From NCBI GenBank assembly GCA_947458455.1, contig CANGYJ010000005.1, forward strand, positions 186,001-250,000: 64,000 bases of DNA, given 5' to 3'. The DNA comes from Verrucomicrobiaceae bacterium. GTDB taxonomy: Bacteria > Verrucomicrobiota > Verrucomicrobiia > Verrucomicrobiales > Verrucomicrobiaceae. The notes beneath the pieces are model-generated. The model did no database searches, had not been told where the DNA came from, and saw only the letters and a list, made by a program, of their open reading frames with translations. The translations under genes and the position numbers were made by a program. Shown here piece after piece: positions 37,390 to 62,027 of this stretch (the first letter of the stretch is position 1; every line of letters starts with the position of its first letter).

Positions 37390-37438
37390 GCAAAAGAGGG
37401 ATGACAGCGCTGCGAAGGTGCGTTTTTTCTCCGCACAC

Positions 37439-38888: not shown

Positions 38889-38945
38889 GAAGAGGGCGCT
38901 CAAAGTGGAGCAGGCCACCCGTGGTTCAAGATGCAAAACACGGTG

Positions 38946-41111: not shown

Positions 41112-41270
41112 GTGGGCGAGGCAAAACGAGCTCGGCGCGGTCTTCTATCCTTGGACGCCCCGTGGCCATGGCCACAAAAAGAGGACAAATTCCCATCCAA
41201 GATTTTCTCCAGGCATGAATCCCGGTTGCACGCTTGTTCCGTATCTCCATGATGAATTTCCACTTCCCAC

Positions 41271-41981: not shown

Positions 41982-42008
41982 ATTTGAACCTTTTTGCTCC
42001 TTTTCGCC

Positions 42009-43925: not shown

Positions 43926-43946
43926 AACGCCTTCCTTCCCGTCCCC

Positions 43947-44735: not shown

Positions 44736-44765
44736 TCGACAGACATGTCGCGTCTCGTTTCTGAA

Positions 44766-44801
44766 TGGAGATTTGGCCCATGTGCCAAATCTCCATTTTT
44801 T
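44766..44801 (+). terminator. Rho-independent terminator of sdhCAB
   Basis: A perfect 12-bp stem, TGGAGATTTGGC (44766-44777) with GCCAAATCTCCA (44784-44795), a 6-base loop and six T residues (44796-44801). It lies 31 bases after the sdhB stop. Confidence 0.88.
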
Positions 44802-44948
44802 GATGCCCCTCACGGTGGCCTATACGACCGCTTTCGCATCTGAATCGGATAAAGAGCTGACAGCGAAGCGTGATAGCCAAACGAAACGTTTGGAACGAGG
44901 TGTGGCAGACCTTCATCCCACCGCCAAGCATTGGACGAACGAGATTCC

Positions 44949-45467
44949 TTACTTCAAAGCCGCCTCGATGGCGGAAAGGAGGTCGCCTGATTCGGGTTCG
45001 GCATCGGAGCCGAAGCGCTGGATGAGTTTACCATCCTTGCCGACGAGGAATTTTTCGAAGTTCCAGCCGACCTCACCGCCGCCCTCAGTGAGGAGGGCAT
45101 AGAGCGAGTGTTTGGCATCGCCCTTGATGGTGACTTTGGAGGTCATCGGAAAGGTGACCTTGTAATTCGAGCTGCAGAAGGTCTGGATGTTTTTTTCGTC
45201 TCCGGGCTCCTGGCCGCCGAAATCGTTGCAGGGCACACCGAGCACCACGAGACCCTTCGCGGCCATTTTCTCGCTCAGGGCCTGCAAGCCGGCATACTGG
45301 CCGGTGTAGCCGCACTCGGAGGCCACGTTGACGATGAGCACAGCTTTGCCCGCGTAGGTTTTGAGGGCGAGTTCTTTGCCTTCGATGTCCTTCATCGTGA
45401 GGTCATGGATGGAATCGGCGGCGAAAGTGGAGAGCGTCATGGTGAGGAGGGCGAGGAGGGTTTTCAT
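44949..45467 (-). CDS. Glutathione peroxidase-family peroxidase, exported
   Basis: 172 residues. The signal peptide (MKTLLALLTMTLSTFAA) suggests a periplasmic site. The catalytic Cys lies in NVASECGYTGQY, the catalytic Gln in PCNDFGGQEPGDE, the resolving-Cys position in IQTFCSSNYKV, and the Trp/Asn pair in VGWNFEKFLV. The Cys form (not selenocysteine) with the QTFC cysteine resembles thioredoxin-dependent members. It starts 20 bases downstream of the beta-CASP gene's end in the same direction. Confidence 0.92.
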   Translation of the reverse strand: MKTLLALLTMTLSTFAADSIHDLTMKDIEGKELALKTYAGKAVLIVNVASECGYTGQYAGLQALSEKMAAKGLVVLGVPCNDFGGQEPGDEKNIQTFCSSNYKVTFPMTSKVTIKGDAKHSLYALLTEGGGEVGWNFEKFLVGKDGKLIQRFGSDAEPESGDLLSAIEAALK

Positions 45468-45486
45468 GGTGGAAGGTGGGCGCGGG

Positions 45487-46884: not shown

Positions 46885-46929
46885 CGCAGGAAAGACGCCG
46901 GGGGCTGGGCGAGTGCAAGCGGCTTGTCC

Positions 46930-47769
46930 TCACACCGGGTCCACCTTCTTGCCACGCCTCATGAGCCAGGCAAACGGTTCCCAAAGCTGACCAAAGAACC
47001 CCTTCGGCATGGGCTCGCAGATGCCGAAATTCTCCGGGTAACGACCGCGTGGCATGTAAAAGGTGCCGAAGAGGATGTCCCACAGCGGCAGCAGACCAGC
47101 GAAGTTTTTGTCCCAGGCTTCCCGCTCCCGCGAGTGATGCCAGCGGTGGAAGACGGGCGTGGCGATCACATAGCGCAGCGGGCCGAAGTCCCAGTTCACA
47201 TTCGCGTGGATGAAGATGGCGAAAAAGGTGAGCACGGGCGCGGTGCTCAGCGTCACCAGCGGATTGAAGCCCATGAGCAGCAGCGGCACGGCTTGCGAAA
47301 GTTTGTTCACCAGTTCATTCACCGGATGCACCCGCACGCTGCCGAGCCAGTCGAGATCCTCGGAAGAGTGATGCACCGCGTGAAAGGGCCACCATCTGCC
47401 GCGATGAAAAAGCCGGTGCGTCCAGTAACCCGCGAAATCGCCGATCACATAGATTTCGATGGCTTGCAGCCATACCGGCTGGTGGCTCAGCGGGCCAAAT
47501 CCGGCATACAAGCCGGCTTTGAAGGTCTCCGCAGGCACTACCTGTGTGATGACAAGAATCGCGGCAGGGAAAAACAGCAGCAGACGCATCAACGGCTTCG
47601 TGAACAAACCCGTGGCGAAGAGGTAAATGACATCCGTGAACCATCCGCGACGGATCACTGGCTGCGCACGATTTCTCCCACGCCCGGCGAGGCGCTCGAT
47701 GATGAAAAAGATCGCGGACAGGATGAGCAGCGCCGCTGCGGTGCCGAGGAGAGTCTTGTTGTCTTTCAT
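46930..47769 (-). CDS. Sterol desaturase / fatty acid hydroxylase family membrane protein
   Basis: 279 residues with several membrane helices and the di-iron histidine clusters HRLFHRGRWWPFHAVHH (HxxxH...HxxHH) and FHRWHHSRER, plus HANVNWDFG. Integral membrane non-haem iron oxygenase fold. The substrate (sterol, lipid or carotenoid) cannot be told. It is followed closely by the beta-CASP gene in the same direction. Confidence 0.88.
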   Translation of the reverse strand: MKDNKTLLGTAAALLILSAIFFIIERLAGRGRNRAQPVIRRGWFTDVIYLFATGLFTKPLMRLLLFFPAAILVITQVVPAETFKAGLYAGFGPLSHQPVWLQAIEIYVIGDFAGYWTHRLFHRGRWWPFHAVHHSSEDLDWLGSVRVHPVNELVNKLSQAVPLLLMGFNPLVTLSTAPVLTFFAIFIHANVNWDFGPLRYVIATPVFHRWHHSREREAWDKNFAGLLPLWDILFGTFYMPRGRYPENFGICEPMPKGFFGQLWEPFAWLMRRGKKVDPV

Positions 47770-47924
47770 GGGAGGAAGCGGCTGGAACCACGCTAGGCGA
47801 TAATGGTTTCCACTATGCCGCTTTTGCGGTCATCCCGGACAAATCATGCCGTATCCGACCACAATATCGGAACAGCGCACCGAGGGCATCATGGCGTCGT
47901 CAACCTTCAACAACCAAACGCGCC

Positions 47925-48743
47925 ATGAACACCACCACCGCTCCCCTCAATGCTCGTCAACGCTTTATCCAGAACCTCGCGGATAGCGAGCTCTTCCAGC
48001 ATTACCAGAAGGCTTTCAATACCCTCACCAGCCTGCCGCTGTGCCTTGAGACCGCTCCTGAGGACTGCCACTACGAAGGCGTGATCACCCGCACCGGCGT
48101 CGCTGGCGTGGTGGAAACCAAGGTTCCAGTGAAAGTCGGCAAAAACGTCATCGCGCTCATGCTCACCGGTGCCGTCCGCCTCCAGCCCGCGAATGCGGAC
48201 ACCTTCGCACCGGTCGCCAAAGCCCTCCTCGATGAAGACCGCTCCGCTGCTGAAATTCGCAGCGCCAAGGTCCACTTCGACCACGCCCCGGTCATGGCTC
48301 CTGAGCGCTACGATGCCGCCATCGCCATCCTGCAATCCTTCGCCCTCCAACTTGGCGAAAGCGCCCACCGCCTCCTGTTTGCCACCGCTACGAATGAGCC
48401 CGAGGCCGTGCGCAATGCGAAGTCCTTCATCCATCAGCATCTCGCCGAGCCGATGTCCCTCGAAGCCGTCGCCAAGGCGGTGAACGTGAGTCCCTTCCAC
48501 TTCTGCAAGCTCTTCAAGCGTGCCACCGGCCTCACCTTCACAGACTTTGTGAACCGCGCCCGTGTGGAAAAAGCCAAGCGCATGCTCATGAAACCCGCCG
48601 CCCGCATCACCGAGGTGGCCTACGATGTCGGCTTCCAGAGCCTGTCCCATTTCAACCGCAGCTTCCGCCGCATCGCCTCGGAGTCCCCCACCGAGTTCCG
48701 CGGCCGAATGAAGCACGGCTCCCCTGCCCTCGCGGCAGCGTGA
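47925..48743 (+). CDS. AraC-family transcriptional regulator, PocR-like sensor
   Basis: 272 residues. The C-terminal 100 residues are the two helix-turn-helix AraC domain: EPMSLEAVAKAVNVSPFHFCKLFKRATG and ITEVAYDVGFQSLSHFNRSFRRI. The N-terminal domain (residues 12-140) has PLCLETAPEDCHYEGV and resembles the PocR ligand-sensing fold; this part is tentative. Stand-alone gene ending before a terminator. Confidence 0.85.
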   Translation: MNTTTAPLNARQRFIQNLADSELFQHYQKAFNTLTSLPLCLETAPEDCHYEGVITRTGVAGVVETKVPVKVGKNVIALMLTGAVRLQPANADTFAPVAKALLDEDRSAAEIRSAKVHFDHAPVMAPERYDAAIAILQSFALQLGESAHRLLFATATNEPEAVRNAKSFIHQHLAEPMSLEAVAKAVNVSPFHFCKLFKRATGLTFTDFVNRARVEKAKRMLMKPAARITEVAYDVGFQSLSHFNRSFRRIASESPTEFRGRMKHGSPALAAA

Positions 48744-48888: not shown

Positions 48889-49359
48889 TTGAAACGCGTC
48901 CTCTTTGTCTGCACCGGAAACACCTGCCGAAGCCCCATGGCCGAGGCGCTTTTTCGTGACCTCGTCAAAGACCGCGCTGATTACGAAGTCAGCAGCGCTG
49001 GCGTGGCCGCCGCTCCCGGCATGCCCGCCAGCAAGCACACCACGGCCATCCTGAAGGAAAAAGGCCTGCATCGCGATGACTTCTCCAGCCGCATGCTCAA
49101 CGAGAAGATGCTCAAGGCCGCCACACATGTCTTTGCCATGTCCAGCCACCACCTCGCCGCCATCGAGGATGAGTTTCCCGAGCACGCCGACAAGGTGTAC
49201 CTCGTCTCCGAGTTCACTCAAGAGGATGCCATTCGTGGCAAGGATGTGAGCGATCCCTTCGGCGCCGGCCGCGCCGCGTATGAAGAGACGCTCGCCGATC
49301 TCGAAAAGATGCTCCCGAGCCTCGTCGCCTACATCGATCAGACGCATAAGGAATCGTAA
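48889..49359 (+). CDS. Low-molecular-weight protein-tyrosine phosphatase
   Basis: 156 residues. The P-loop VCTGNTCRSPMAEALF holds the catalytic Cys and Arg (C-x5-R). The general acid Asp is in DVSDPFGAG. It has the full LMW-PTP fold. Starts with TTG at 48889, since no ATG lies in front of the P-loop and MKRVLFVCTGN is the family start. It could oppose the BY-kinase-like protein at 27.3 kb, but is not linked to it. Confidence 0.92.
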   Translation: MKRVLFVCTGNTCRSPMAEALFRDLVKDRADYEVSSAGVAAAPGMPASKHTTAILKEKGLHRDDFSSRMLNEKMLKAATHVFAMSSHHLAAIEDEFPEHADKVYLVSEFTQEDAIRGKDVSDPFGAGRAAYEETLADLEKMLPSLVAYIDQTHKES

Positions 49360-49360
49360 T

Positions 49361-49401
49361 CGGGGCATTCCTGCCCCGTTCGAAGGGCCAAGAATGGCCC
49401 T
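49361..49401. terminator. Twin hairpins between convergent genes
   Basis: CGGGGCA/TGCCCCG (49361-49378, loop TTCC) and AGGGCCA/TGGCCCT (49384-49401, loop AGAA) stand side by side. They separate the phosphatase from the convergent PSD1 gene. No T-run follows, so they may act as a repeat or an mRNA 3'-end protector. Confidence 0.5.
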
Positions 49402-49419
49402 GCTACTTTTCGCCGCTCC

Positions 49420-51573
49420 TCAGTTCACATAAACGAACTCATTCAAGCTCAGCACCACCTGGCCGTAATCCGCCAGCGAAGCGCCGGATTGCAGGAAATC
49501 GAGCCCGGAGGTCAGTTCGGCGGCTTTTGGAGCACGATTGAAGCAGAGGAGGTAAATCATGGCGATCTGCTTCGTGGCATCGCCAGCGGTTGAGACGCGT
49601 TTGGCGAGTCCATCGGCCCATTGACGAGCCTGCGGGCTGTTCATGAGCACGAGGGCCTGTGGAGCCACCGTCGTCGTGGGGCGTGCGCCCTGGCTCACGA
49701 GTGGTTCAGGCAGGTCAAAGGCCACCATGCTGCCGATGAGCTGGCTGCGCTTGATGTTGAAGTAGATGCTGCGGCGCTTGCTGTTTTCGTCGCGAGTGCC
49801 GGGACCAAACATGGTCTTGTCCAGCACGCCGCTCACGGCCAGCATCGAGTCGCGAATGGCCTCGGCTTCGAGGCGCTGCGGCACGAAGCGCATGAAAAGC
49901 CCGTTCGCGGGATCAGCGGCTTCCTTTTTCGCATCGCGAACGCTGCTTTGCTGCCAAGCACGACTGCTGAGGATCAGCTTGTGGATCGGTTTCAGCTTCC
50001 ATCCATTTTCGATGAGCTTCGCCGCCAGCCAATCGAGCAACTCCGGCTGCGTGCAGGCTGTGCCGGTCTTGCCAAAGTCATTCGGCGTCGGAACGAGACC
50101 GGTGCCGAAATGATGCTGCCACAGGCGGTTCACGATCACGCGTGCCAGCAGTGCACCCGCACCCTGATCGACATCCGTGATCCAGTTCGAGAGCGAGCGA
50201 CGACGACCACTGTATTTTGCGTCCTTCGGCGGCTGCCATTGCCAGCGTTTTGAGTCGCCGGGCTTGCTCAGCACTTGCAGGAAGCCCTGCGTGGCCTCGC
50301 CGTCCTTCATGAGCGGGTTGCCGCGCTTCAGCACATGCGTTTTTTCAAAGAACGGCCCGCCTTGCGTGTGCATCACGATGGGATCGTAGCCCTCGGCGCA
50401 GATCATCATGCGCGTGGCCCCCGGGACGGCTGCGGTGTTCTTTTTGGCGTTCATCGTCGTCACCGCGGAGGTCACTTTGCCATCGGGATGCACGTCCACA
50501 TTCATGCGCGTGGTCGTCGTGAAGGTGCTGAGCATCGCGTAGTAGTCGCGAGTGGGCAGCGGATCGAATTTGTGATCGTGACAGCGGGCGCAGCTCAGCG
50601 TGAGGCCGAGCATGGCACCCGCCGTGGTGCCCAGCATGTCGTCCATCGCGTCGTAGCGGGAGCTTTCGACCTCATTCGCGGTGATCTGAGAAGGAAACAC
50701 GCCCGCGCCGAGAAAGCCCGTCGCTGCCAGCGCCAGCGGGTTCTGCGGCTCGTATTCATCCCCCGCGAGCTGCCACTTCACGAACTGGTCATACGGCATG
50801 TCCGAGTTCAGCGCCTTGATGACAAAGTCCCGGTAATGAAACGCAAAGGGCCGGTCATAGTCCTGCTCAAAGCCCGTGCTTTCGGCATAGCGGGCCACAT
50901 CCAGCCAATGACGTGCCCAACGCTCACCATACGCCGGGCTGCTCAACAGCCCGTCAATCAGGTCACTCAGGTCAGCCGTGTCAGAAACCTTCGAGGGTGG
51001 CAGGCCTGTGAGATCCAGATACAGCCTCCGCACCAGCACTTCCTTCTCCGCTGACGGCGCAAAGCTCATCCCTTTCGCATTCTTCAAAAGCAGCTCATCA
51101 ATGCTCTTCGCCTGCACCTTCTTCAGCGGCTGAAAGGCCCACCACTGCCGGTCCTCGTCCGTGACCACGCTGCTGTCCTTTTTCGGCTTTTTGCCCGCGA
51201 TCAGCGGCGCGGAATACGGCGCTCCATCATCAATCCAGGCCGCGATCTTCGAAATGACGGCGTCCGGCAGCTTCGGACTGCTGTCCGGCATGTTCGGCTC
51301 CTTTTCGTGACGAATCAGCGCCATCAAAAGACTGCCCCTCGCCTCGAAAGGCACCACCACCGAGCCATGCGAGCCACCGCGCAGCAAATCCTCACGCGTC
51401 GCCATGTCGAAGTCGCTCTTCACTTTTTCGCCGCCGTGGCATTTGAGGCAGTTTTGCTTCAAAAGAGCCGCCACCTCGCTGTCGAAGAGCTTGAGGCCAC
51501 GAGCCATGCGCTGGGCATGATCCGGCGGCAAGGCGAGCGCAGAGGTCGTGAGGAATAGAAACAGGAGTCGCAT
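49420..51573 (-). CDS. PSD1-type protein: planctomycete cytochrome C + DUF1549 + DUF1553
   Basis: 717 residues from ATG 51573, where the signal peptide (MRLLFLFLTTSALA) begins. The N-terminal haem module has LLKQNCLKCHGGEKVKSDFD (CxxCH). DUF1549 follows with VRRLYLDLTGLPPSK and SCARCHDHKFDP. DUF1553 ends it with VNRLWQHHFGTGLVPTPNDFG and ALVLMNSPQ. Likely an exported redox protein; the substrate is unknown. A decayed AraC-like regulator sits just upstream. Confidence 0.9.
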   Translation of the reverse strand: MRLLFLFLTTSALALPPDHAQRMARGLKLFDSEVAALLKQNCLKCHGGEKVKSDFDMATREDLLRGGSHGSVVVPFEARGSLLMALIRHEKEPNMPDSSPKLPDAVISKIAAWIDDGAPYSAPLIAGKKPKKDSSVVTDEDRQWWAFQPLKKVQAKSIDELLLKNAKGMSFAPSAEKEVLVRRLYLDLTGLPPSKVSDTADLSDLIDGLLSSPAYGERWARHWLDVARYAESTGFEQDYDRPFAFHYRDFVIKALNSDMPYDQFVKWQLAGDEYEPQNPLALAATGFLGAGVFPSQITANEVESSRYDAMDDMLGTTAGAMLGLTLSCARCHDHKFDPLPTRDYYAMLSTFTTTTRMNVDVHPDGKVTSAVTTMNAKKNTAAVPGATRMMICAEGYDPIVMHTQGGPFFEKTHVLKRGNPLMKDGEATQGFLQVLSKPGDSKRWQWQPPKDAKYSGRRRSLSNWITDVDQGAGALLARVIVNRLWQHHFGTGLVPTPNDFGKTGTACTQPELLDWLAAKLIENGWKLKPIHKLILSSRAWQQSSVRDAKKEAADPANGLFMRFVPQRLEAEAIRDSMLAVSGVLDKTMFGPGTRDENSKRRSIYFNIKRSQLIGSMVAFDLPEPLVSQGARPTTTVAPQALVLMNSPQARQWADGLAKRVSTAGDATKQIAMIYLLCFNRAPKAAELTSGLDFLQSGASLADYGQVVLSLNEFVYVN

Positions 51574-51611
51574 CACCGAAACATACGCTGGACGAGCATG
51601 CCCTTTTCTGT

Positions 51612-51717
51612 CGTAGTTGTGTCCGATCATGGCTTCATGGCATCACCGCCACGGCCACGCTCCCGCTAGATACCAGCCCCTCCTTGATTCGTCACCCAAG
51701 CATGTGTCCTTTCCTGC
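51612..51717 (+). pseudogene. Shrunken copy of the 5' part of the AraC gene at 62 kb
   Basis: Three blocks occur in the same order as in the AraC gene at 62028. A 22-base exact block (51612-51633, equal to 62011-62032, including the start codon) is followed by TACCAGCCC (51671-51679 / 62133-62141) and a 15-base exact block TGTGTCCTTTCCTGC (51703-51717 / 62354-62368). The intervening DNA is deleted or diverged. It is the likely remnant of a paralogous regulator of the PSD1 gene next to it. Confidence 0.6.
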
Positions 51718-51773
51718 GCATCTAACGGGGCGTGGAGATGCCGCCCTAATGCGCGGCATCCTCCGATAATGCT

Positions 51774-53765
51774 TCAGCGTGCAGACTGAATGGACACAAG
51801 ATACACCATGATCTTCGCTTTGCTCTTGGTGGAGTCTTTGACGTTGGCGACGATCTTCACTGGCTTGCCGAGATGAGGCTCCACAGCTGCGGCGAGCTCT
51901 TTGATCGCGTAATAGACTTGTCCGCCCGCTTGCTCGGTGAAGACGATGCCTCCATCGGCGGCCTTGGTGAAGGTGCCGCTCGTTTGCAGACGTCCCGCGG
52001 CGGCGGGTGCCTTCGGACTGGCTTTTGTGTTAGCCTTGGGCTTCGTCACCTCACCCGCATCGAGTTTCTTTTTGTAATCCTGGTATTCGGGCCAGCTCAG
52101 CGTGCCATCGCCGTTCGCGTCGGCGGCGGGATGGCTTTTGAAGAAGGTGTCCTTCCACTCGGCGGCGGACATCTCCGCAGCAGGTTTGGCCGCAGGATCG
52201 GGCTTGGGCATCATCGCCAGCAGTTGGGTGCGGAAGGCTTCGAGCTGCGCGGCGTGCTCAGGACTGGCCGCGAGGTTGGTCCACTCACGCGGATCATCCG
52301 AGACACGATAAAGCTCCTCCTTGCCGTTCTCGTAGCGGATGTAGCGCCACTCCTTGCCGCGCAAGGCGTAGCTTTGTTGCACCGCGTCATTGGTCTTGCC
52401 CCACTTGCTCAGAGCGGTGAGCGCGGCATCCGGGCCGGTCCAGGTGCCGTTTTCGGGATCGGTGAGCAGCGGCTTGAGGCTGTGGCCGTCCAGCGGGCGG
52501 CCTTGCTCGTTTTTCTTCGTGTCAGCGGGCAGACCGCAGAGGTCCACCAGCGTCGGGCAGAGATCGATGAGCGAAACAGGGCGCGGGCACTGACCTCCTG
52601 CCTTTGCCACTCCCGGAGCACGAATCGCGAGCGGGATGCGCGTGCTCTCCTGCCAGAGCGAGTTCTTATACAGGTAAGCCTTCTGCCCCATCTGAAAGCC
52701 GTGGTCGCTGGTGAAGACGACGATGGTGTTCTCCTTCAAAGGTGAAGCATCGAGCGCATCCAAGATCTGCCCAATGTGATCATCCACGGACGCAATGCTC
52801 GCGAGATAGGCTTGCAGGAACTTCTTCAGGGCCAGCTCCCGGTCATTGCCAAACGAAGCCACCAGACTGTCGTGAATCTTTCTGCCGCGATCATCGCCAT
52901 CCTTGATGAGCGTGTGCTTGAACGTGTCTTCTGCGTCTCCGGCCTTGATCTCGGGCAGTTGGATCGTTTCGAGAGGAAAGAGGTCGAAGTATTTCTGCGG
53001 CACGATGAGGGGCGTATGCGGACGGATGAATCCAACGCCCATGAAGAAGGGCTTTGCCTTGGGTTTCGCCGCCAGTTCGTCCAGCTTCGACACCGCCCAC
53101 TGCGCATTCATTTCATCGGGCGTCAGGTCGCGGTCCGTGTCGGATGTGTAGCGCATCGGTCGCGGGCCCTGCCAACTGCTCGACATCCAGGAGAAGCCGC
53201 TGCCCTCCAGATTCCGCAGCGGACCGAACGAGCCGTCGATGGAGCCGAAGTCATCTCGAAAAGGCGCGGGCGTGTCCGGGTGGGCGACCTCTTTTTCCTG
53301 CTGCTTCGCAAAGGGGCCGTAATCCGAGGGATTCCCGTATTGCTGCCACTCTTTGCGGTCGCGGTTGTGCATGATCTTGCCCGTGCCCAGTGTCTGATAG
53401 CCCTGCGCTCGGAAATGGTCCATGAGCGTGCGGTTGTTTTTCAGGACCGCGTTTTCATCCCAGTTGTCCATGCCAAAGTTCCGCGAGGTGTGCGGATAAA
53501 GCCCGGTGAAGAGACTCGCACGGGAAGGTGCGCAGATGGGCACATTGCAATGCGCCTGCGTGAAGGACACGCCGCTGGCAAACAGCCGGTCGATGTTCGG
53601 CGTCTTCACCTGCGGATGCCCATCGAGAGCGCCTATGTAGTCGTTCAGGTCATCGCAGATGATAAAGAGCACGTTCGGCCGGGGCGATTCGGCGGCGCAC
53701 AGGGTTGAGCTGCTGAGGACGCAGAGAGAGCCGAGGATGGAAAAGAGGGGCGAGGTGAACTTCAT
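51774..53765 (-). CDS. Sulfatase, iduronate-2-sulfatase-like, with EF-hand
   Basis: 663 residues from ATG 53765 (signal peptide PLFSILGSLCVLSSSTLCA). The metal-binding start is NVLFIICDDLNDYIGALDGHP. The formylglycine site is CAPSRASLFTG (C-x-P-S-R), so it needs a maturase encoded elsewhere. A calcium-binding EF-hand (DANGDGTLSWPEY) lies near residue 560, then a Lys/Ala/Pro linker and an unidentified C-terminal domain. Likely exported and removes sulfate from glycans. Last gene of the esterase-sulfatase series. Confidence 0.92.
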   Translation of the reverse strand: MKFTSPLFSILGSLCVLSSSTLCAAESPRPNVLFIICDDLNDYIGALDGHPQVKTPNIDRLFASGVSFTQAHCNVPICAPSRASLFTGLYPHTSRNFGMDNWDENAVLKNNRTLMDHFRAQGYQTLGTGKIMHNRDRKEWQQYGNPSDYGPFAKQQEKEVAHPDTPAPFRDDFGSIDGSFGPLRNLEGSGFSWMSSSWQGPRPMRYTSDTDRDLTPDEMNAQWAVSKLDELAAKPKAKPFFMGVGFIRPHTPLIVPQKYFDLFPLETIQLPEIKAGDAEDTFKHTLIKDGDDRGRKIHDSLVASFGNDRELALKKFLQAYLASIASVDDHIGQILDALDASPLKENTIVVFTSDHGFQMGQKAYLYKNSLWQESTRIPLAIRAPGVAKAGGQCPRPVSLIDLCPTLVDLCGLPADTKKNEQGRPLDGHSLKPLLTDPENGTWTGPDAALTALSKWGKTNDAVQQSYALRGKEWRYIRYENGKEELYRVSDDPREWTNLAASPEHAAQLEAFRTQLLAMMPKPDPAAKPAAEMSAAEWKDTFFKSHPAADANGDGTLSWPEYQDYKKKLDAGEVTKPKANTKASPKAPAAAGRLQTSGTFTKAADGGIVFTEQAGGQVYYAIKELAAAVEPHLGKPVKIVANVKDSTKSKAKIMVYLVSIQSAR

Positions 53766-53883
53766 CTGCAAGGTACTGTAGCAGCCCCAGCCTTTCATCA
53801 ATGCCTGTGAACAGGGAGACTGAAGTTGTTCCAGATTTGAACCCTGAACGATTTCTATTCGCTGAACGAACTCCGTGCCTGGG

Positions 53884-55080
53884 TTACTTACCCACAAATG
53901 CCGGAATAATCCGCTGTGGCAAGGTCTTGAGCATATCGCCCATGCCTTTGTTGTGGGAGGTGATGACGGCGACCAGATCGAGTTCAGGGAACATGAAGAT
54001 GAACTGCCCGCCTGCGCCGCGGCCTTGGAAGCTGTGGTAGGTTTTTCCGCCAACGGTAAAGTCATCGACCCACCAGAAGAAGCCGTAGTGCTCGTTGATC
54101 TGGCTCGGTGTGGTCGCCCGCACGAGGTAGGCCTCGGGGATAAGTTGCTCGCCCTTCCATTTGCCTTTGTTGAGGATTAGCTGGCCGAACTTCAGCATGT
54201 CGCGGGAGAGGATGCTGCTGCCAGCGGCGGACTTCGGCAGGCCGCTGATGGCGTGCTCCCAATGATACTGGGTGATGTTGAGGCGTCCGAGCAGTTCGTT
54301 CTTGATGAACTCCTCCGCGCCGTGGGGAGCCACGGCGTTCACGACTTGCATGGCGATGGCGGTGTCGGGCTCCTGATACTTGAACTCGCGCGGCATGGGC
54401 GGGATCGGATCGGTGTGTTGCAGATAGGCCTGCAGTTCTCCCAGTCCCTTGAGCGCCGCCGGATTCTTCATCAACTCTTTCTCCTTCTCCTTCGCAAGCC
54501 GGATGCCGGACCCCATCTGCATGGCCTGCGCGAGCGTGATCGTATCGGCACCGGGGACGAGCTTGGTCGTGTCGAGTCCCTTGAGGAAAGAGATCACGGG
54601 CTTGTCGAGGTCTTCCATCTTCAGCAGTCCGAGCTGAATCGCGCGACCCACGGCCAGGGCAGCGTAGGATTTCGTGATCGACATCTGGTAGTGCGGGAAG
54701 TTCGCGCGGCCCCGGCGGTAGTAGGATTCAAAGAGCAGCTTGCCGCGATAGCTGATGAGCATGCTGTCCACATGGCCCGCCGTCTCGTCCTTCGCCGCTG
54801 CCGCCAGCTCGTTGGCAAAGGCTTCAATCATCGCGCGGTCACCGCCATCGATACCGAGCTTGCCCACGACGAGCCCGTCCTTCTTGTCTTCCGGAGCTGC
54901 GCTGATATAGGGCTTCTCCAAGTCCGGCAGCTTGGCTTCCAGCCGGTAAAGTTTGTCCGCCAAGTTCAGCCCAGGCACCTCGGGCGCGAGGCCGTTGCTA
55001 GGCTGCTGGGCGTGGAGAGGAAAGCCGCTACTCACGAGGGTGAGCGTCAGCAGCGAATAGAGCGTGGGATGGATTCTCAT
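53884..55080 (-). CDS. Secreted class C beta-lactamase-like serine hydrolase
   Basis: 398 residues, signal peptide ending near FPLHA. The nucleophile motif SITK (in HYQMSITKSYAALAVG) is the S-x-x-K of the beta-lactamase/DD-peptidase fold. HYEHAISGLPKSAAGSSILSRDML-like segments and GRGAGGQFIFMFPEL follow the esterase branch of the family. Within this cluster an esterase acting on acylated sugars is more likely than antibiotic resistance. Confidence 0.85.
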   Translation of the reverse strand: MRIHPTLYSLLTLTLVSSGFPLHAQQPSNGLAPEVPGLNLADKLYRLEAKLPDLEKPYISAAPEDKKDGLVVGKLGIDGGDRAMIEAFANELAAAAKDETAGHVDSMLISYRGKLLFESYYRRGRANFPHYQMSITKSYAALAVGRAIQLGLLKMEDLDKPVISFLKGLDTTKLVPGADTITLAQAMQMGSGIRLAKEKEKELMKNPAALKGLGELQAYLQHTDPIPPMPREFKYQEPDTAIAMQVVNAVAPHGAEEFIKNELLGRLNITQYHWEHAISGLPKSAAGSSILSRDMLKFGQLILNKGKWKGEQLIPEAYLVRATTPSQINEHYGFFWWVDDFTVGGKTYHSFQGRGAGGQFIFMFPELDLVAVITSHNKGMGDMLKTLPQRIIPAFVGK

Positions 55081-55103
55081 CGTGGGCATCAGGTTGGGTT
55101 TGA

Positions 55104-56684
55104 TCACTTCGCCTCCTTCGCCTCCTTCGCCTCCGCTGCCTTCTTCATCGCGCGGTTGGCCTTTCGCATGGCGGCCTTGTCGTCAGGTGCGGGTGGCATC
55201 GTGGTCTTGGAGTCCGGCTCCTCGCCAGCTTCGGTGGCGGTTCCGCCGGACTTGTCGAGTGCGGGGTAGTTTTTCACTGCTTCGGCGAGCTTGGCGGGAT
55301 CTTCGCGGACATCGAAGGCCGCTAGGCAGTGGTCGGTCTTTTCGATCATCCATTGGCGCAGACGATTCTGATACTTCTTCACGAGACCCTGATGCTTGGG
55401 ATCGTGGATGACGTTGTTCGTGCAGCCGGGATCTTTTTCGAGGTCGTAGAACTCCTGCGGGACACGGAGCCGGAACAGGTCCACGCGAGCTTGGATGGCG
55501 GCATCGGTTTTACCGGCTTGCTCCATCGCAGCGAAGGTCAGGCCTTCGTTGTTGTTCTTGTATTTGTATTTGCCGTCGGAGAAGGCGTTGAAAATGTAAG
55601 CGTAATGCGCGTCCTGGATGCTACGCATCGGCTTGGCCGGGCCGCCGATGGTGTAGTCGATCTGGGTGAAGACGTATTCGCGTCCGTCCTGCTCTCCGCC
55701 TTTGAGGAGCGGGACCATCGAGCGTCCGTCGAGTCCGCTGGGCATGGGCAGGCCCGTGGCCTCCATGAAAGTGACGAAGAAATCGACCTCGGAAACGAAG
55801 TGCGTTTTGTCCACCGAGCCGGGCTTGATCATGCCCGGCCAACGAAACAGCATCGGCGTGCGATTGCTGGCGAGATAGGTGTTGGCCTTCGCAAAGGGAA
55901 ACGCGGCGCCGTTGTCGGTGATGAAGACGACCAGCGTGCAGCTGGCGAGACCGGATTCGTCGAGCGCCTGGAGCACGCGGCCAACGGTGTCGTCGAGTCG
56001 GCGGACGGAGCTGAAGTAGTTCGCGTATTCCTCGCGCACCTTGGGGAGGTCAGGGAGATAGCTGGGGATGACCATCTCCTCCGGTTTGAAGATTCGCGAC
56101 GGCACTTCCTCCCCGTTTTTGGCGCGACCGTTGGGATCGTAGAACGGGCGATGAGGATCATGGGAGTTGACCATGAAGTAGAAGGGTTTGTTCTCCGCCT
56201 TGCAGCGTGCAAAGAACTCCTGTGCGAATCCGTGATACTTGGTCGGACTGCGACCCGCGCCGAGTTCATTTTGGTCGTGCGCGAAATCCCGCTTGAACGC
56301 CGCATCGGGCGTGGAGTGGCTCACCTTGCCGAGAACGCCCGTGAGATACCCCGCTTTCTTGAAGGTGCCAAACACCGTCGGGATCGGCTTGGTGAGCTTG
56401 TTGAAGCCAAACAACCCGCTGTTATGCCCATAGCGCCCCGTGGCGATGATGCTGCGGCTCGGACAACAAATGGCGTTGTTGACGAAGCCATGCTGAAAGC
56501 TGAGGCCCTCGGCAGCGAGCTTGCTGAGGTTCGGCGTGACGCCCGGCACCTTGCCATCGAGAAAGTCCATCGCCTCATAGCCGAGGTCATCGGCGGTGAT
56601 GAGGAGGACATTGAGCGGCGGCTCGGCGGCGTGGAGCGCGGCGAATGACCATACAGATGCGAGGAGAACAAGGAACGGTTTCAT
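55104..56684 (-). CDS. Sulfatase, heparan N-sulfatase-like, with repetitive C-terminal tail
   Basis: 526 residues from ATG 56684 (signal peptide ending FAALHAAE). Metal-binding NVLLITADDLGYEAMD, formylglycine site CCPSRSIIATGRYGHNSG, then FYFMVNSHDPHRPFYDP and VVFITDNGAAFPFAK. The pattern is that of N-sulfoglucosamine sulfohydrolase-like enzymes. The last 20 residues are Lys/Ala-rich, ending EAKEAKEAK from three tandem 9-base units (55108-55134). Cotranscribed with the esterase (29 bases) and the serine hydrolase (23 bases). Confidence 0.92.
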   Translation of the reverse strand: MKPFLVLLASVWSFAALHAAEPPLNVLLITADDLGYEAMDFLDGKVPGVTPNLSKLAAEGLSFQHGFVNNAICCPSRSIIATGRYGHNSGLFGFNKLTKPIPTVFGTFKKAGYLTGVLGKVSHSTPDAAFKRDFAHDQNELGAGRSPTKYHGFAQEFFARCKAENKPFYFMVNSHDPHRPFYDPNGRAKNGEEVPSRIFKPEEMVIPSYLPDLPKVREEYANYFSSVRRLDDTVGRVLQALDESGLASCTLVVFITDNGAAFPFAKANTYLASNRTPMLFRWPGMIKPGSVDKTHFVSEVDFFVTFMEATGLPMPSGLDGRSMVPLLKGGEQDGREYVFTQIDYTIGGPAKPMRSIQDAHYAYIFNAFSDGKYKYKNNNEGLTFAAMEQAGKTDAAIQARVDLFRLRVPQEFYDLEKDPGCTNNVIHDPKHQGLVKKYQNRLRQWMIEKTDHCLAAFDVREDPAKLAEAVKNYPALDKSGGTATEAGEEPDSKTTMPPAPDDKAAMRKANRAMKKAAEAKEAKEAK

Positions 56685-56713
56685 CGTCGGTGTGCGTGAT
56701 GGAATTGGGTGCG

Positions 56714-58522
56714 TTACTGTGTCATCCGCGGGCGCTCCCAGTCTTGGTAGCTCCGCTTGGCGTCGCGGGCTTCGTCGGTCATTTCGGGTTTTTCCACGCC
56801 CGCGTCGGGATGGTTGGGATCGAAGAGCGGCCAGGTGTCGGTGCGGAAGGGGGAGGCAGGAAGGCCTTCCTGGTTGTAGAGCAGATTGCGTTGTGAGGGA
56901 TTCATCGCCCAGGCGTAACGGACGGCCACGGGAGTGGGCACTTCTTTGGACGAAACGATGACTTTGTTTCCGTCGATCTCGGCATCGGCCCAATGCCATT
57001 TCTTGTCCGCTCCGGCGATGGCGAAGGCGTCCAGTTTGCCCGGCTTGGCGGGCATCATGCCGGTGCCGATGCTGTCGAATTCGAGGGTGATTTTGCTGCC
57101 TTCGATCTTCTGGCTGAGATAGCGCGGGCCGATGGGGACGATGTCTTTGCCATAGGCTTCTTTGAGCGCGAGATAGGCGTGGCGGATGCCGATAGGCTTC
57201 TTGTTTTGCGGATGCAGGGCAACAGGATCGCCGCAATCAATGCCCACGGCCATGCCGGTGTGCGGCATCTCCATGCTGACGAGCCGCATGGTCTCGCGGT
57301 TGACCGCCCAGGTGGCCTCGAAGCCTTCGACGGGCTGTGTTTGCGGTGCTTCCCAACTGGGCAACTGCGTGAAGAAAAAGGGGAAATCTTTCGCGACATT
57401 GCCGCCGGAGAGTTCATGCCATGAGGAGCGGTAGTAGCTGATCAGCCGCTTCAGTTGTTCGCCATAGGCAACGGCCTGGGGCGCGGTCTTGGAGTTGCGC
57501 TCGCCCTGATACCAGATGGCACCTTTGATGCCATAAGGCCGGATGGGATAGATCATGCCGTTGAAGATGTGAGCTGGATACTGATGCCCCAAGTCGGCGG
57601 GTTTGGTGATCGTGGGCGGTTGCAGCTCCCGCGCCTGGTTCTTCATGGTCTCGCCTGCGGCGATCCTGCCGTTGTAGTCAGCGAGTTCGCTTTCAAACTG
57701 CTGGAGCGCCTTCTCGCGGCTTTCGCCCTTGCCATCCTTTTGCCGCTGGGCGCTGCGATCCATGTCTTCCATCTGCAGCTTTGATTGCGCGATGTCCTGC
57801 TGGACCTCCCACGGTATCCAACCCTCAATCGGTGTGCCCGCATAAGCCTGCTGGATGATTCCGACGGGCACATTGAGAGCCTGATGGAGCTTCTTGCCAA
57901 AGTTATACGCCACGACGGAAGTCTCGGCGGCGGACTCGGGATTGCAGGGCTTCCATTGATCGAGCAGATCGCGTTTCTCCTGCAATGGCTCATGCCAGTG
58001 CTCGCGGGCCGATTTGAAGATCCGGTAGTTCGGCAGGTTGACGTTCGCCTCCATCTCCGCCTCTGCGGAGTTGCCCACCGACCAGCCCATGTTGGACTGC
58101 CCGGCACAGAGCCACACTTCGCCGATGGCCACGTCTTCAATATGGATGGTCTTCGAACCGGTAATTTTCAGCGAATGCCCCGTGCCAAACGCGGGCGTAT
58201 CTAAGAGCACCTTCCACGCGCCATCCGCACCGGCTTGCGCCGAGGCCGTGGCTCCCCAACTCGCCGTGACGGTGATGGATTCTTTCGGCTCGGCCCATCC
58301 CCAGATGGTGTTCTTCATGTTCTGCTGGAGGATCATGTGATCGCCAAAAAGGCTCGGCAGGCGAAGGCCCGTCTTCGCCGGCATGGCGATTTCTGATGGT
58401 TTCTGCGCGGCCTCCGCTGCCTTGCGCCTCGCCTGTCTTTTGGCGGCTTTGTCGTCCTCAGCTTTCGCCGTGTAGGACGCAGCCAAGAGAAGGATCAGCG
58501 AGAGTGTGGTCAATGTTTTCAT
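56714..58522 (-). CDS. Sialate O-acetylesterase (SGNH hydrolase)
   Basis: 602 residues with signal peptide (LILLLAASYTAKA). A beta domain precedes the catalytic domain, where WLCAGQSNMGWSVG holds the nucleophilic Ser. GIIQQAYAGTPIEGWIPW, KGAIWYQGERNS and a late CGDPVALHPQNK give further family motifs. It removes O-acetyl groups from sialic acid or plant/algal glycans. First structural gene after the second copy of the ECF-type promoter (58546-58576). Confidence 0.92.
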   Translation of the reverse strand: MKTLTTLSLILLLAASYTAKAEDDKAAKRQARRKAAEAAQKPSEIAMPAKTGLRLPSLFGDHMILQQNMKNTIWGWAEPKESITVTASWGATASAQAGADGAWKVLLDTPAFGTGHSLKITGSKTIHIEDVAIGEVWLCAGQSNMGWSVGNSAEAEMEANVNLPNYRIFKSAREHWHEPLQEKRDLLDQWKPCNPESAAETSVVAYNFGKKLHQALNVPVGIIQQAYAGTPIEGWIPWEVQQDIAQSKLQMEDMDRSAQRQKDGKGESREKALQQFESELADYNGRIAAGETMKNQARELQPPTITKPADLGHQYPAHIFNGMIYPIRPYGIKGAIWYQGERNSKTAPQAVAYGEQLKRLISYYRSSWHELSGGNVAKDFPFFFTQLPSWEAPQTQPVEGFEATWAVNRETMRLVSMEMPHTGMAVGIDCGDPVALHPQNKKPIGIRHAYLALKEAYGKDIVPIGPRYLSQKIEGSKITLEFDSIGTGMMPAKPGKLDAFAIAGADKKWHWADAEIDGNKVIVSSKEVPTPVAVRYAWAMNPSQRNLLYNQEGLPASPFRTDTWPLFDPNHPDAGVEKPEMTDEARDAKRSYQDWERPRMTQ

Positions 58523-58545
58523 GGTTTGATCAAAGGGATCGTCAT

Positions 58546-58576
58546 CGAAGTAGGGGCCAACGGGGGAAATGTCACA
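58546..58576 (-). promoter_or_regulatory. ECF-type promoter upstream of the sialate esterase gene
   Basis: Minus strand TGTGACA (58576-58570), 13 bases, CCCCTACTTCG (58556-58546). The same two blocks with the same 13-base spacing precede the sigma factor gene. The leader to ATG 58522 is about 23 bases. Confidence 0.65.
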
Positions 58577-58620
58577 ACGGCGTCGGAAATAGCGGAAGAA
58601 AACCAGCGTGCAGCCAATCG

Positions 58621-60030
58621 TCACCGCATTGTCGGTGAATCAGACACGTCCACGATGACGCGGATTTGAACCAATCCATGCTCGATGGCCTGGTCCACCT
58701 GCCAGTCGAGCTTGAGCGTCCGGCGGTCTTGACTCAGCGAAAGGCGGTCGCGGCTCCTGAGGGATCGTCCCCCGCCTGACGAATAGACGAACCTCTTTTT
58801 GCCGAGCACTTCATTGGAGGCCGTGAGTTGATCTACGTCCGCGATGATGGCGATGATCGGACGGTCAAAGCTCACTTCACTGACGAAACGCATGGGATCG
58901 GACTCGGCGGTGCCCTCCGCCAGTGGCGGACGGTATTGGATGAGATAGGTGTTCACGCGCCGCTTTTCAGGATGCAGCGTCTCCTCTCGTCCGACGATCT
59001 CATCCGGCCCGTAGTCTCCTGGCTCGGTGAGGCTCACGGTGAAATCCGTCCTCAGCTTGGTCGCGAATCGCTCCGGGAAAATCACGAGGTTGTCGGCATC
59101 TGTGACATCCGCCGGATTCAGACCGGGATGCGGATAGGCGAAGCGAATCTTGCCCCCCGTGTTCACGACGCCAAACAAGACCTCCGCGCCGCGAAACGTG
59201 CGCGTGTTGAACTGCCGAGGCTTCAGCGCACCCGAGCCTTCGTTGACAGTCACCTTGCTGCCTTCCTCAATGACCTTCTCCTCGCGGCTCGCTAGTGAAG
59301 TCACCGCGACCAGGCCCTCATAGACCGCCACATCCGTCACCCCATTCGTTCCCACCGAAACGCCGAAGGTCGTGCCGAGATCCACCACCTTCGCCCGCTC
59401 GGTGTGGACCTGAAATCCAATCCCCTCCGGCGGGACATTCGCGGTGAGCTTTCCTGAATGAAGCCGAGTCTCACCTGGGCCGATGAGTTCCAGATCAGCC
59501 GGACCTTCCAGAGTCAATCGAACGTCCTTGGCAAAATCCAGTCGCACCAAGCCCGCGACCAGCTTCAGGCGACCTTTTCCGACAGGCGCACCGGCAGCGA
59601 GCTTCCGATCACCCGACCATGTCCCATCGATCTGATGCGCGATGGTGGCGAGCGGCTCGTCCGCCTTTGGCAAACTCCACATCACGAAGAATCCGAGCGC
59701 GATCACCGCCGCGATGCCCGCCGCCCATTTCACGGGCGGATACCAGCGAATGCTCTTCGGCGATGGCCTCAGCGCGGACAAGACCGCGGCAGACACATCG
59801 TGCGAAGTCTTGTCGGGCAGAATGCATTGCATCACCTCCTGCGCCCGGCGTTCTCTTTCATCGAGCAGCGGCAGACCACGCAGCGAATTCTGAAGGCGGA
59901 GTTCATTCACAAAACGCGATTTCAAATCCGCGTCCTCAGCGAAAGCCATGAGCAATTCCCGTGAGGCCTCCTCATCGAGCGTCCCGTCCGCATAGCCCTC
60001 CAGTAGTTCGAGGAATCGTTCGTCGCTCAT
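58621..60030 (-). CDS. FecR-like transmembrane regulator (anti-sigma type)
   Basis: 469 residues. The N-terminal part (SDERFLELLEGYADGTLDEEASREL) is a zinc-less anti-sigma-like domain. One transmembrane helix (AGIAAVIALGFFVMWSL, about residue 115) follows. The periplasmic FecR domain has GRLKLVAGLVRLDF, GPADLELIGPGETRLHSGKL and VDLGTTFGVSVGTNGVTDVAVYEGLV. A C-terminal extension follows. Start is set by a 4-bp overlap with the sigma gene, so the two proteins are made together. It probably binds or senses for the sigma factor. Confidence 0.88.
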   Translation of the reverse strand: MSDERFLELLEGYADGTLDEEASRELLMAFAEDADLKSRFVNELRLQNSLRGLPLLDERERRAQEVMQCILPDKTSHDVSAAVLSALRPSPKSIRWYPPVKWAAGIAAVIALGFFVMWSLPKADEPLATIAHQIDGTWSGDRKLAAGAPVGKGRLKLVAGLVRLDFAKDVRLTLEGPADLELIGPGETRLHSGKLTANVPPEGIGFQVHTERAKVVDLGTTFGVSVGTNGVTDVAVYEGLVAVTSLASREEKVIEEGSKVTVNEGSGALKPRQFNTRTFRGAEVLFGVVNTGGKIRFAYPHPGLNPADVTDADNLVIFPERFATKLRTDFTVSLTEPGDYGPDEIVGREETLHPEKRRVNTYLIQYRPPLAEGTAESDPMRFVSEVSFDRPIIAIIADVDQLTASNEVLGKKRFVYSSGGGRSLRSRDRLSLSQDRRTLKLDWQVDQAIEHGLVQIRVIVDVSDSPTMR

Positions 60031-60590
60031 GCTGCACCTCCCGGTTGAAGCGGCCGCTCCATGCACTCACGCAGCGTCTTGCGGACGCGGTTCAAGGTCG
60101 TCGTCACCCAGCTCACCGTGCGCTGCTTTTGTGCAGCGATCTCCTTGCAGCTCCGCTTGTTGAAATAGCGGAGCGCCACCAGGTCCGACGCCTCACGCCC
60201 CAGCTTCCCCACGCAGTCCCGCAGCCCGGACAACTGATCCTGCTTGAAATCCGGCTCCATGTCCTCCGTCACCGCCGAGGCCATCTCCACGTCCAACTGC
60301 TCGCGATACTTCGATAGATTGTTCGCCTCCCGCCGCTTCTTCTCCAGCTCCGTGAGGATCAAATACTTGCACGTCACACAAAGCCACACGCCAAACTCCT
60401 CCTCCGCCCGAAACTCCGCCAGCCGCTGGTAGGCGCGAATAAACGTCAACTGCACCACCTCCTCCGCCAGTGTCCATTCCCCCAGCCGACGCAGCGCGTA
60501 TCCCAGCAGCATGTCCTGATGCTCGCGCACGACCTCGCCATAAGCGTCGAGATCGCCATCCAGGATTCGCTGTTGGGTGAATTGGTTCAT
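60027..60590 (-). CDS. ECF-type sigma-70 factor (Rhodopirellula/Verrucomicrobium type)
   Basis: 187 residues. Region 2 is DAYGEVVREHQDMLLGYALRRLG...EEVVQLTFIRAYQRLAEF. Region 4 is CVGKLGREASDLVALRYFNKRSCKEIAAQKQRTVSWVTTTLNRVRKTLRECM. It resembles the planctomycete-verrucomicrobial sigma-70 subfamily. ATG 60590 is chosen because region 2 begins there. It lies eight bases downstream of an ECF-type promoter element (60599-60629), so it probably autoregulates. It overlaps the FecR gene by 4 bp. Confidence 0.9.
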   Translation of the reverse strand: MNQFTQQRILDGDLDAYGEVVREHQDMLLGYALRRLGEWTLAEEVVQLTFIRAYQRLAEFRAEEEFGVWLCVTCKYLILTELEKKRREANNLSKYREQLDVEMASAVTEDMEPDFKQDQLSGLRDCVGKLGREASDLVALRYFNKRSCKEIAAQKQRTVSWVTTTLNRVRKTLRECMERPLQPGGAA

Positions 60591-60598
60591 GCCGTTTC

Positions 60599-60629
60599 CG
60601 AAGTAGGGGCCGGTATGAACTTTGTCACA
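60599..60629 (-). promoter_or_regulatory. ECF-type promoter upstream of the sigma factor gene
   Basis: Minus strand TGTGACA (60629-60623), 13 bases, CCCCTACTTCG (60609-60599), the twin of the site at 58546-58576. The 8-base gap to ATG 60590 suggests a leaderless or nearly leaderless mRNA. Confidence 0.65.
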
Positions 60630-60708
60630 GAAAAGGTCGCTGAGCCTCGATTGGCACTGGTTCTTCGGGAGATGTCCTTGGGGCGTTAAAACTAAAGACG
60701 GCAATGGG

Positions 60709-61833
60709 TCATTCCTGCGTCTTCATCCACTCCGCCGCTTTGCGGTTGGCGGCGGTGATCAAGGCCACGTTTTCTGCGTCGGGTGTTTCCTGTTCGTCGA
60801 GCAGTCCGTAACGGCGGGCTTTGTTGCGCAGATAGGCACCGCAGAGGTGAAAGCCGATGCAGCCAGGGTTCTGGAGCAGTCCTTCCAAAGTCTCCGCATA
60901 CCATGTGCCGTTGTTGCGGGTGAACTCGCCTGGAGCGGTCTGCCATTTGATGCGTGCTCCATCGGCCAGCAGAACAGGTTTGCCGGTCTTCTCGTGCCAC
61001 TCGCGTAGATGCTTCACCGGATCGCTGAAATCCTGAAAGGAAAGCACGTCCACGAACGGCAGCGCGGCGTTGATGACCTCCATCGCGATGGGCTGATTCG
61101 CCTCGTAGCGGTCGCCGAGGATGAGGTGATGGTTGTCGTAGCGGCGGATCGCGTCGTGCGTGGTCTGGTAGTAAATGCGGGCCAGTTCGGACAACTCTTT
61201 GCGGCCCGCTTCTGTCTTGAGTCGCTCGGGGTCGAAGATCGGGCCGCGCCAGGCATTGTCCGGGCGCTGGTGAATCCAGCAGGGGCAGTCGCTGTAGAAG
61301 TAACCGACGAGATGAGGATCGTCAGCGAGCTCGGCGCAGTGCGATCGGGCCACGTAATCGCACCATTCCTTCCAGTCGGCGCTGCGGAAGTCGTAATGGG
61401 CCGTGTGCTTGTCCCACTGGTGCGACTCCGTGAAGGGCAACATGTGGCAGTAGGGCAGGCCCAGCGCACGATATTCATCGTGGGTGAAGGACCGCGAGTG
61501 TTTCCAATTCCGGACGGTCGTGTCCTGGACCCATCCGACCGTGTTGAAGCCCCATAACTTGAGATTCGGTGCCACGGACTCCTGGAGCCATCGCTGCATG
61601 CTGCCGCCGTATTTGTCGCGCCAAAGGTGAATGTTCTCGGGGTAACGAAGGCTCGCCGGGTCGATGTGGTTCAAGCCGAGGCTGAAGAGCGGCCCGCCGT
61701 CTGGCTGGATCAGCCACCAGCGCCCTTTGCGTTGCGCGAGCGTGAAGAACTTGCCTTCCGACGCGGCGCGGAGGGAGAGTGCGGGAGCCAGGGTGGCCAG
61801 GGCGGCACGGGTGAGAAAGTGGCGGCGGTTCAT
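60709..61833 (-). CDS. Tat-exported glycoside hydrolase-like protein
   Basis: 374 residues from ATG 61833, where a twin-arginine signal MNRRHFLTRAALATLAPALS begins. The mature part reads GRWWLIQPDGGPLFSLGLNHID, VGYFYSDCPCWIHQRPDN, HLILGDRYEANQPIA and VLSFQDFSDPVKH, features of clan GH-A barrels. The WWLIxPDG-x-x-FFSLGL opening is seen in agarase-like families, so a red-algal galactan target is possible. Not firmly assigned to a family. Divergent from the AraC gene. Confidence 0.7.
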   Translation of the reverse strand: MNRRHFLTRAALATLAPALSLRAASEGKFFTLAQRKGRWWLIQPDGGPLFSLGLNHIDPASLRYPENIHLWRDKYGGSMQRWLQESVAPNLKLWGFNTVGWVQDTTVRNWKHSRSFTHDEYRALGLPYCHMLPFTESHQWDKHTAHYDFRSADWKEWCDYVARSHCAELADDPHLVGYFYSDCPCWIHQRPDNAWRGPIFDPERLKTEAGRKELSELARIYYQTTHDAIRRYDNHHLILGDRYEANQPIAMEVINAALPFVDVLSFQDFSDPVKHLREWHEKTGKPVLLADGARIKWQTAPGEFTRNNGTWYAETLEGLLQNPGCIGFHLCGAYLRNKARRYGLLDEQETPDAENVALITAANRKAAEWMKTQE

Positions 61834-62027
61834 GGGTGATTCTGGATTTAATGCTCCCTCGGGCATTTCTATCAGCCGATGGTGTTGGGCGGCTTTTCCT
61901 GCAAGCTGCGGTTTTCTTATCGCTGTTGAGAAGTGGGCGTTTGGGCACTGAAGGCCTTCCAGCTCGGTGAAACCGGCCAAACTCAACTGAACGAGTGCTC
62001 GCACCTTCGGCGTAGTTGTGTCCGATC

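Follow-up and report, generated by a model that had tools for sequence, protein, structure and literature searches.

Twin promoter-like elements are predicted to place glycan degradation genes under an autoregulated ECF sigma factor paired with a FecR-like protein in a Verrucomicrobiaceae bacterium

In the FecI/FecR and PupI/PupR systems of E. coli and Pseudomonas, the gene for an ECF sigma factor is followed by that for a single-pass FecR-type regulator, and the target is a receptor which, in the Fec system, carries an N-terminal STN domain. The fecIR genes are controlled by sigma70, and the periplasmic part of PupR consists of two subdomains (residues 110-238 and 250-324), and binding of the receptor signalling domain requires both (PMC9249621). 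Many ECF sigma factors are autoregulated, about 55% by prediction (PMC8103513), but FecI-like systems are exceptions and are usually not autoregulated (PMC8103513, PMC9249621). A second kind of system is SigI/RsgI of Clostridium thermocellum, an autoregulated sigma/anti-sigma operon with polysaccharide-degrading targets and an anti-sigma factor that bears an extracytoplasmic sensor module; SigI promoters carry an A-tract and CGAA (PMC6056542). In Bacteroides, ECF/anti-sigma pairs control glycan degradation genes and frequently regulate the TonB-dependent transporters SusC/D (PMC10766802). A word count of that review gives none beginning Verrucomicrobi-.

We analysed a 64,000-nucleotide stretch of DNA (hereafter the window) from a Verrucomicrobiaceae bacterium. 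Sulfatases and ECF sigma factors are numerous in Verrucomicrobiota. The locus resembles the Fec and Pup systems in gene order and in the single-pass FecR-type regulator, but its sigma factor would be autoregulated and its targets would be hydrolases rather than a receptor. By analogy, we regard SigI/RsgI as the closest functional counterpart: the same combination of autoregulated operon, polysaccharide-degrading targets and sensor-bearing anti-sigma factor is proposed here, although the boxes differ from those of SigI, the putative anti-sigma factor is of the FecR type and its proposed sensor domain gave no clear match to a carbohydrate-binding family. The twin elements described below very probably serve as -35/-10 promoters for a single ECF sigma factor that activates its own gene, is paired with an anti-sigma protein of the FecR type and controls glycan degradation. 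The features of the locus, with coordinates in the window, are as follows.

60599..60629, minus strand: putative promoter element 1 (sigma gene); -35 TGTGACA at 60623-60629, -10 region CCCTAC at 60603-60608
60027..60590, minus strand: ECF sigma factor, 187 aa; its stop codon and the start codon of FecR overlap (ATGA); Pfam Sigma70_r2, 3.6e-12
58621..60030, minus strand: putative FecR-type membrane anti-sigma factor, 469 aa; Pfam FecR, 9.9e-6; AlphaFold model; PDB 6ovk (PupR), Z 16.0
59185..59583, minus strand: FecR/PupR-like periplasmic subdomain, residues 150-282; structure match
58624..59184, minus strand: unclassified C-terminal beta domain of FecR, residues 283-469, proposed sensor; no clear match
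58546..58576, minus strand: putative promoter element 2 (esterase gene); present before esterase orthologs in relatives too
56714..58522, minus strand: SASA-family carbohydrate esterase, 602 aa, signal-peptide-like start; Pfam PF03629, 1.3e-15
55104..56684, minus strand: sulfatase 1, 526 aa; Pfam PF00884, 1.4e-38; 29-nt gap behind the esterase
53884..55107, minus strand: beta-lactamase-fold serine hydrolase, 407 aa; Pfam PF00144, 2e-22; overlaps the sulfatase 1 stop
51774..53765, minus strand: sulfatase 2, 663 aa; 118-nt gap behind the serine hydrolase, no element

The sigma factor and the twin elements

The pattern TGTGACA-N13-CCCCTACTTCG had two exact matches in the window, both on the minus strand (60629-60599 and 58576-58546). 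In the sigma-gene copy, TGTGACA occupies 60629-60623 and CCCCTACTTCG occupies 60609-60599. The element lies 8 bases from the sigma ATG (60590), and its second copy 23 bases from the esterase ATG (58522). The description given by the first-pass annotation, of two exact minus-strand copies at equal spacing, the first 8 bases from the sigma start codon, and no third in the window, was thus reproduced. No further exact copy of the core was found in the 5,352,110-base (5.35-Mb) genome. When one mismatch was allowed, TGTGACA-N15-CCTAC gave 10 matches genome-wide, two exact and eight with one mismatch, against 16 for the reversed control. As the one-mismatch matches were at control level and the exact matches were the two in the window, a larger regulon in this genome cannot be claimed and was rejected.

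The same annotation had judged an 18-base split match unlikely to arise by chance. This was weaker than stated: by our estimate, such a match at one fixed spacing, anywhere among all site pairs in 64 kb, has about a 1-in-10 chance. It is the placement ahead of two start codons, rather than the match itself, that makes chance unlikely, and we take sequence conservation in relatives as the decisive evidence for the element. For comparison, sequence upstream of the sigma gene was matched to the surrounding DNA at 18 other ECF-sigma loci of the genome (one, L079, spanning only 4.4 kb at a contig end). The best same-strand split matches were 14-17 of 18 bases, and none reached 18; comparable twin promoters for these other sigma genes were therefore rejected. 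The 17-base match, at L075, extends into the spacer and may be repeated coding sequence.

The minimal element is TGTGACA-N14-CCCTAC, with the trailing TTCG dispensable, because the bases 3′ of CCCTAC vary in one family of the genomes with the core (set f3). Transcription starts were placed about 9 nt after CCCTAC, guided by the sigma H -35 position of -34 to -29 (PMC6411747). Under this placement, the predicted 5′ leaders are about 4 nt for the sigma gene and about 19 nt for the esterase gene. In one relative (G151), the ATG of a hydrolase begins at the eighth nt after CCCTAC, and its mRNA is predicted to be leaderless. The suggestion that the sigma transcript may be leaderless was therefore nearly right, with a short leader predicted for the sigma gene itself and a leaderless start for the hydrolase of a relative. 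The leader at 58522-58545 and those of esterase, sulfatase and glucoamylase-like genes in L014, L018, L019, L021 and L032 share wording around CCCTTTGATC, perhaps as a copied promoter cassette. An eight-codon reading frame in the esterase leader of the window was dropped as a candidate, its ATG being missing from several other esterase leaders.

The sigma factor had a Sigma70_r2 match above cut-off; Sigma70_r4_2 scored 20.9 bits, below the 25.7 cut-off but at the expected place. Such a protein, made up only of sigma2 and sigma4 domains joined by a short linker, fits an ECF (group IV) sigma factor. The boxes TGTGACA and CCCTAC are unlike the AAC -35 and CGT -10 of classical ECF promoters; such boxes are listed as a classical feature of the group, which more recent definitions delimit by domain composition alone (PMC8103513). 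The best NCBIfam model was TIGR02989 (Rhodopirellula/Verrucomicrobium sigma-70 subfamily, Sig-70_gvs1), yet at 111.7 bits the protein falls under its cut-off of 124.55, a threshold passed by three further sigma genes in this genome. Its group may already have an entry in the current ECF classification. Among the matches listed in the open-licence literature, we recognised no description of this promoter or sigma factor, and no promoter sequence tied to a sigma factor of this kind.

Alignment of the recognition region provided a further link between protein and element. A helix in region 4.2, WVTxxLxRxR or [TS]WVT[TS]xL[NS]R, was common to seven aligned orthologs down to 54% identity, and was absent from all 17 own-genome paralogs aligned (17 of the 18 loci, L079 being left out). 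Such co-conservation of the helix that recognises the -35 would be expected if TGTGACA is the -35 target of this sigma factor.

Conservation, targets and loss of the module in relatives

Relatives of the sigma protein were found at 15 contig loci, 11 of them full-length with 85-100% identity (L011-L021). The other four comprised two cut by contig ends (L022 and L024), one of 62% identity (L023) and a remote Streptomyces match of 30% (L025), which was excluded from ortholog counts. The exact core was present in all 11 full-length loci, ending 12 nt upstream of the ATG; the element at L024 is a TGTGACT variant, and the sequence at L022 starts inside the gene. Conservation upstream of the sigma gene was 0.99 and 1.00 in the two boxes, 0.80 in the spacer, 0.90 in the leader and 0.60 in the upstream flank. 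This test was protein-led and independent of the pattern, whereas exact-pattern scans force invariant boxes among their matches; it used 12 distinct sequences from 13 loci (L011-L021, the window and L024), several of them near-identical. These relatives (set f1) are close, and common descent accounts for the similarity of their leaders and of some of the spacer sequence.

The core and the sigma factor also co-occurred on a wider scale. Among 48 genomes of the genus, 10 held the core (22 matches, against 3 for the reversed control), and the sigma ortholog (E 1e-40) was found in seven, all among those 10. Across 386 genomes of the order, the core was found in 21 (40 matches; reversed control, 15) and the ortholog (E 1e-35) in 13, a count that may miss some distant orthologs as eight candidates were scored per genome. 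The exact core occurred in 12 of the 13 ortholog genomes (29 matches) versus 9 of the 373 others (11 matches; Fisher 1.9e-16, a value overstated by the relatedness of the genomes). The element persisted down to 55-62% sigma identity. Many of the relatives are metagenome bins, in which contigs may be mis-assigned.

The exceptions were examined individually. In G117, the sole ortholog genome without a core match, the contig starts within the tail of the gene preceding sulfatase 1, so that the site at which G073 carries its element is not covered. Four of the nine non-ortholog genomes with the core hold a truncated or deleted module: in G021 the sigma gene is cut by a contig end; in G254 FecR, element and esterase lie at a contig edge, with a best sigma match elsewhere of 27%; G038 and G045 are described below. 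The remaining six matches, in five non-ortholog genomes, are no more than the reversed control yields; five fall within reading frames and the sixth, in G085, upstream of one. This last copy (L120, G085:C79, minus strand, 1527-1501) is exact and precedes a 344-aa frame by 22 nt; the best sigma match in that genome is 31%, and the copy reflects either chance or use by another factor.

Random placement of genome-wide hits had been named as grounds for abandoning the assignment. In ortholog genomes, 28 of the 29 matches lie just before start codons, at a distance of at most 35 nt. The targets, in changing gene orders, were sigma, FecR, esterase, sulfatase, serine-hydrolase and glucoamylase-like genes, the last in G036, G037 and G044 (Pfam Glycoamylase, 1.5e-48). 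Copies in the relatives precede sulfatase and glucoamylase-like genes; the genome of the window had no further exact copy. In G151, the targets are FecR, another sulfatase and a serine hydrolase; in G175, they are sigma and a sulfatase. In G073 (61% sigma identity), an N15 copy heads a sulfatase-sulfatase-sigma-FecR series and an N14 copy heads esterase-hydrolase. The lone exception to the placement (L106, G175:C152, minus strand, 1527-1501) is an exact element inside a 430-aa frame, with a terminator-like stem about 65 nt on; it is probably a chance match or, less likely, marks a small RNA.

These arrangements bear on which genes of the window belong to the regulon. Sulfatase 1 follows the esterase in the window, and its orthologs in L019, L032 and L034 have elements of their own, so both arrangements would give the same control. 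In G151, a homolog of the serine hydrolase (55%) is preceded by an element as well (L114). Since one relative or more has a separate element before the homolog of each gene, the comparison supports sulfatase 1 and the serine hydrolase as regulon members, as the first-pass annotation had proposed. Its inclusion of sulfatase 2 was unsupported: this gene lies behind a 118-nt gap with no element, and its matches among the relatives' modules were weak and paralogous throughout (24-40%).

The module is patchily distributed, occurring in 7 of the 48 genomes of the genus. In G054, from another genus, it lies on a 5-kb contig (L011; G054:C68) with 96.9% nucleotide identity to the window over 4,127 bases, whereas the longest match to window positions 36000-48000 is 3.4 kb and only 71% identical, compared with 77-84% in three genomes of the window's own genus. 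This disparity suggests either recent horizontal transfer or a mis-binned contig. In G038 (L031, G038:C584) and G045 (L041/L103, G045:C113), the start of sigma is fused to the end of FecR and the putative promoter is kept. The first six sigma codons are joined to the FecR C-terminus, giving a 41-codon frame in G045, where the sulfatase gene that follows the other element has a frame of just 75 codons. The best other sigma matches in the two genomes are 31% and 27% identical, respectively. Recent loss is a simpler reading of these relics than use by another factor. Sigma and FecR were lost together, as expected of a sigma/anti-sigma pair; where both are visible in ortholog loci, the two genes are adjacent.

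Domain architecture of the FecR-type protein

The FecR-type protein was modelled with AlphaFold from 13 sequences, all of which contained the Pfam FecR domain (mean pLDDT 69.7; below 50 for residues 48-123, which include the membrane stretch). In the model, N-terminal helices (residues 3-50) are followed by a predicted membrane helix (99-118), a FecR/PupR-like region (150-282) and a C-terminal beta domain (283-469). Residues 150-282 matched PupR (6ovk) with Z 16.0 and rmsd 2.2 over 124 aligned residues, and a Parabacteroides anti-sigma factor (4m0n) with Z 14.8. About 187 residues with beta strands occupy the place of the short second subdomain of PupR. The modelled fold therefore suggests that an unclassified beta domain has taken over the position of the STN-docking subdomain.

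A known sensor fold for residues 283-469 was rejected, as neither a clear match nor a named family came from Foldseek (top E-value 0.14), VIA-align (top Z 5.0; rmsd 4.4, 123 aligned) or a profile search of PDB sequences (top E-value 0.0084, to Cep192), and no Pfam family was found at E 0.1. Two sibling FecRs of the same genome carry CBM96 (1.1e-11) and Laminin_G_3 (8.2e-15) domains behind the FecR domain; their sigma-FecR modules lie at L077:473-2017 and L081:4482-6011, and both FecRs end in these domains. Neither domain had a significant profile match to residues 283-469, in a comparison of single sequences with a thin profile. Because two siblings carry CBM96 or lectin-like domains at this place, direct glycan sensing is suggested, and we hypothesize that the C-terminal beta domain is the likely sensor and a glycan its likely ligand. 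A bolder generalisation, which we put forward tentatively and consider rather doubtful, is that the FecRs of this lineage are direct glycan receptors in which the STN-docking subdomain has been swapped for interchangeable sugar-binding domains (CBM96, lectin-like or unclassified beta), each with its own sigma factor and boxes, forming orthogonal TonB-independent switches.

Proposed regulation and alternative explanations

The element, its targets, its conservation and the pairing of sigma with FecR are supported by the sequence comparisons, from which we infer promoter activity, anti-sigma function, release and the cue. The view that one ECF sigma factor drives itself and the esterase gained support from co-occurrence, re-use of the element in relatives and the co-conserved recognition helix. 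As to positive autoregulation, the sigma gene's own putative promoter matches those of the targets, in the window and in orthologs. RNA polymerase with this sigma factor would read TGTGACA-N14-CCCTAC ahead of the sigma-FecR operon, creating positive feedback, and would read the second copy to express the esterase, sulfatase 1 and the serine hydrolase. FecR, which spans the membrane once, would use its N-terminal helices to keep sigma inactive or to condition sigma activity. Sigma would be released when a periplasmic cue acts on the FecR-like and C-terminal beta domains; the most likely cue would be a fragment of the sulfated or acetylated glycan attacked by the exported enzymes. The locus thus offers a specific, testable sigma/promoter pair with a small defined regulon and likely FecR sensing without an STN domain. 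Glycan sensing in Verrucomicrobiota would become testable, and a candidate orthogonal sigma/promoter pair is added.

The alternative closest to this mechanism is that the sigma factor uses the element but FecR works through a TonB receptor, as in FecA/FecR, with a transported ligand as cue. The FecR domain, the PupR-like fold and the six TonB-receptor plug domains in the genome would all be consistent with this. However, the STN domain (PF07660) had no matches in the 96%-complete genome, by a search that was positive in 4 of 14 control genomes, so the FecA-type route appears closed. Nor was a TonB-receptor domain, including any of the SusC/D kind common in Bacteroides, found in the nine proteins scanned around sigma, and FecR ends in a domain that differs from the one in PupR and is larger. 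We therefore consider this version unlikely. For the proposal of the first-pass annotation that FecR acts as sensor, topology and fold fit; it is the STN route that appears unavailable.

An improbable reading is that the element is the operator of another one- or two-component regulator controlling both operons. The two genomes that kept the element without sigma and FecR (G038 and G045), and the G085 copy, would fit such a regulator. The asymmetric two-block layout, with 14-base spacing (15 once) right before start codons, is against it, as are the co-occurrence with sigma and the co-conserved region 4.2 helix. It would also need another promoter, and no sigma-70-type promoter-like site was found in 49000-62000. 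Least credible of all, and very nearly dismissed, is that the match is a functionless relic of a duplicated upstream region, or a product of chance or hitchhiking. The esterase, sulfatase and glucoamylase-like leaders of the f1 relatives do share spacer and leader wording, as if copied. In the f3 genomes, however, the boxes stay the same but the spacers do not, and the copies stand ahead of sigma, FecR, sulfatase, esterase and hydrolase genes; as these matches were found by exact pattern, the invariance of their boxes is by selection, but their placement is not. The two elements thus remain best read as promoters of the autoregulated sigma factor.

The gene upstream of sigma (window 60709-61834, minus strand; scanned as 60709-62004) had no Pfam or NCBIfam match at E 0.001, and is kept at 92% in L011.
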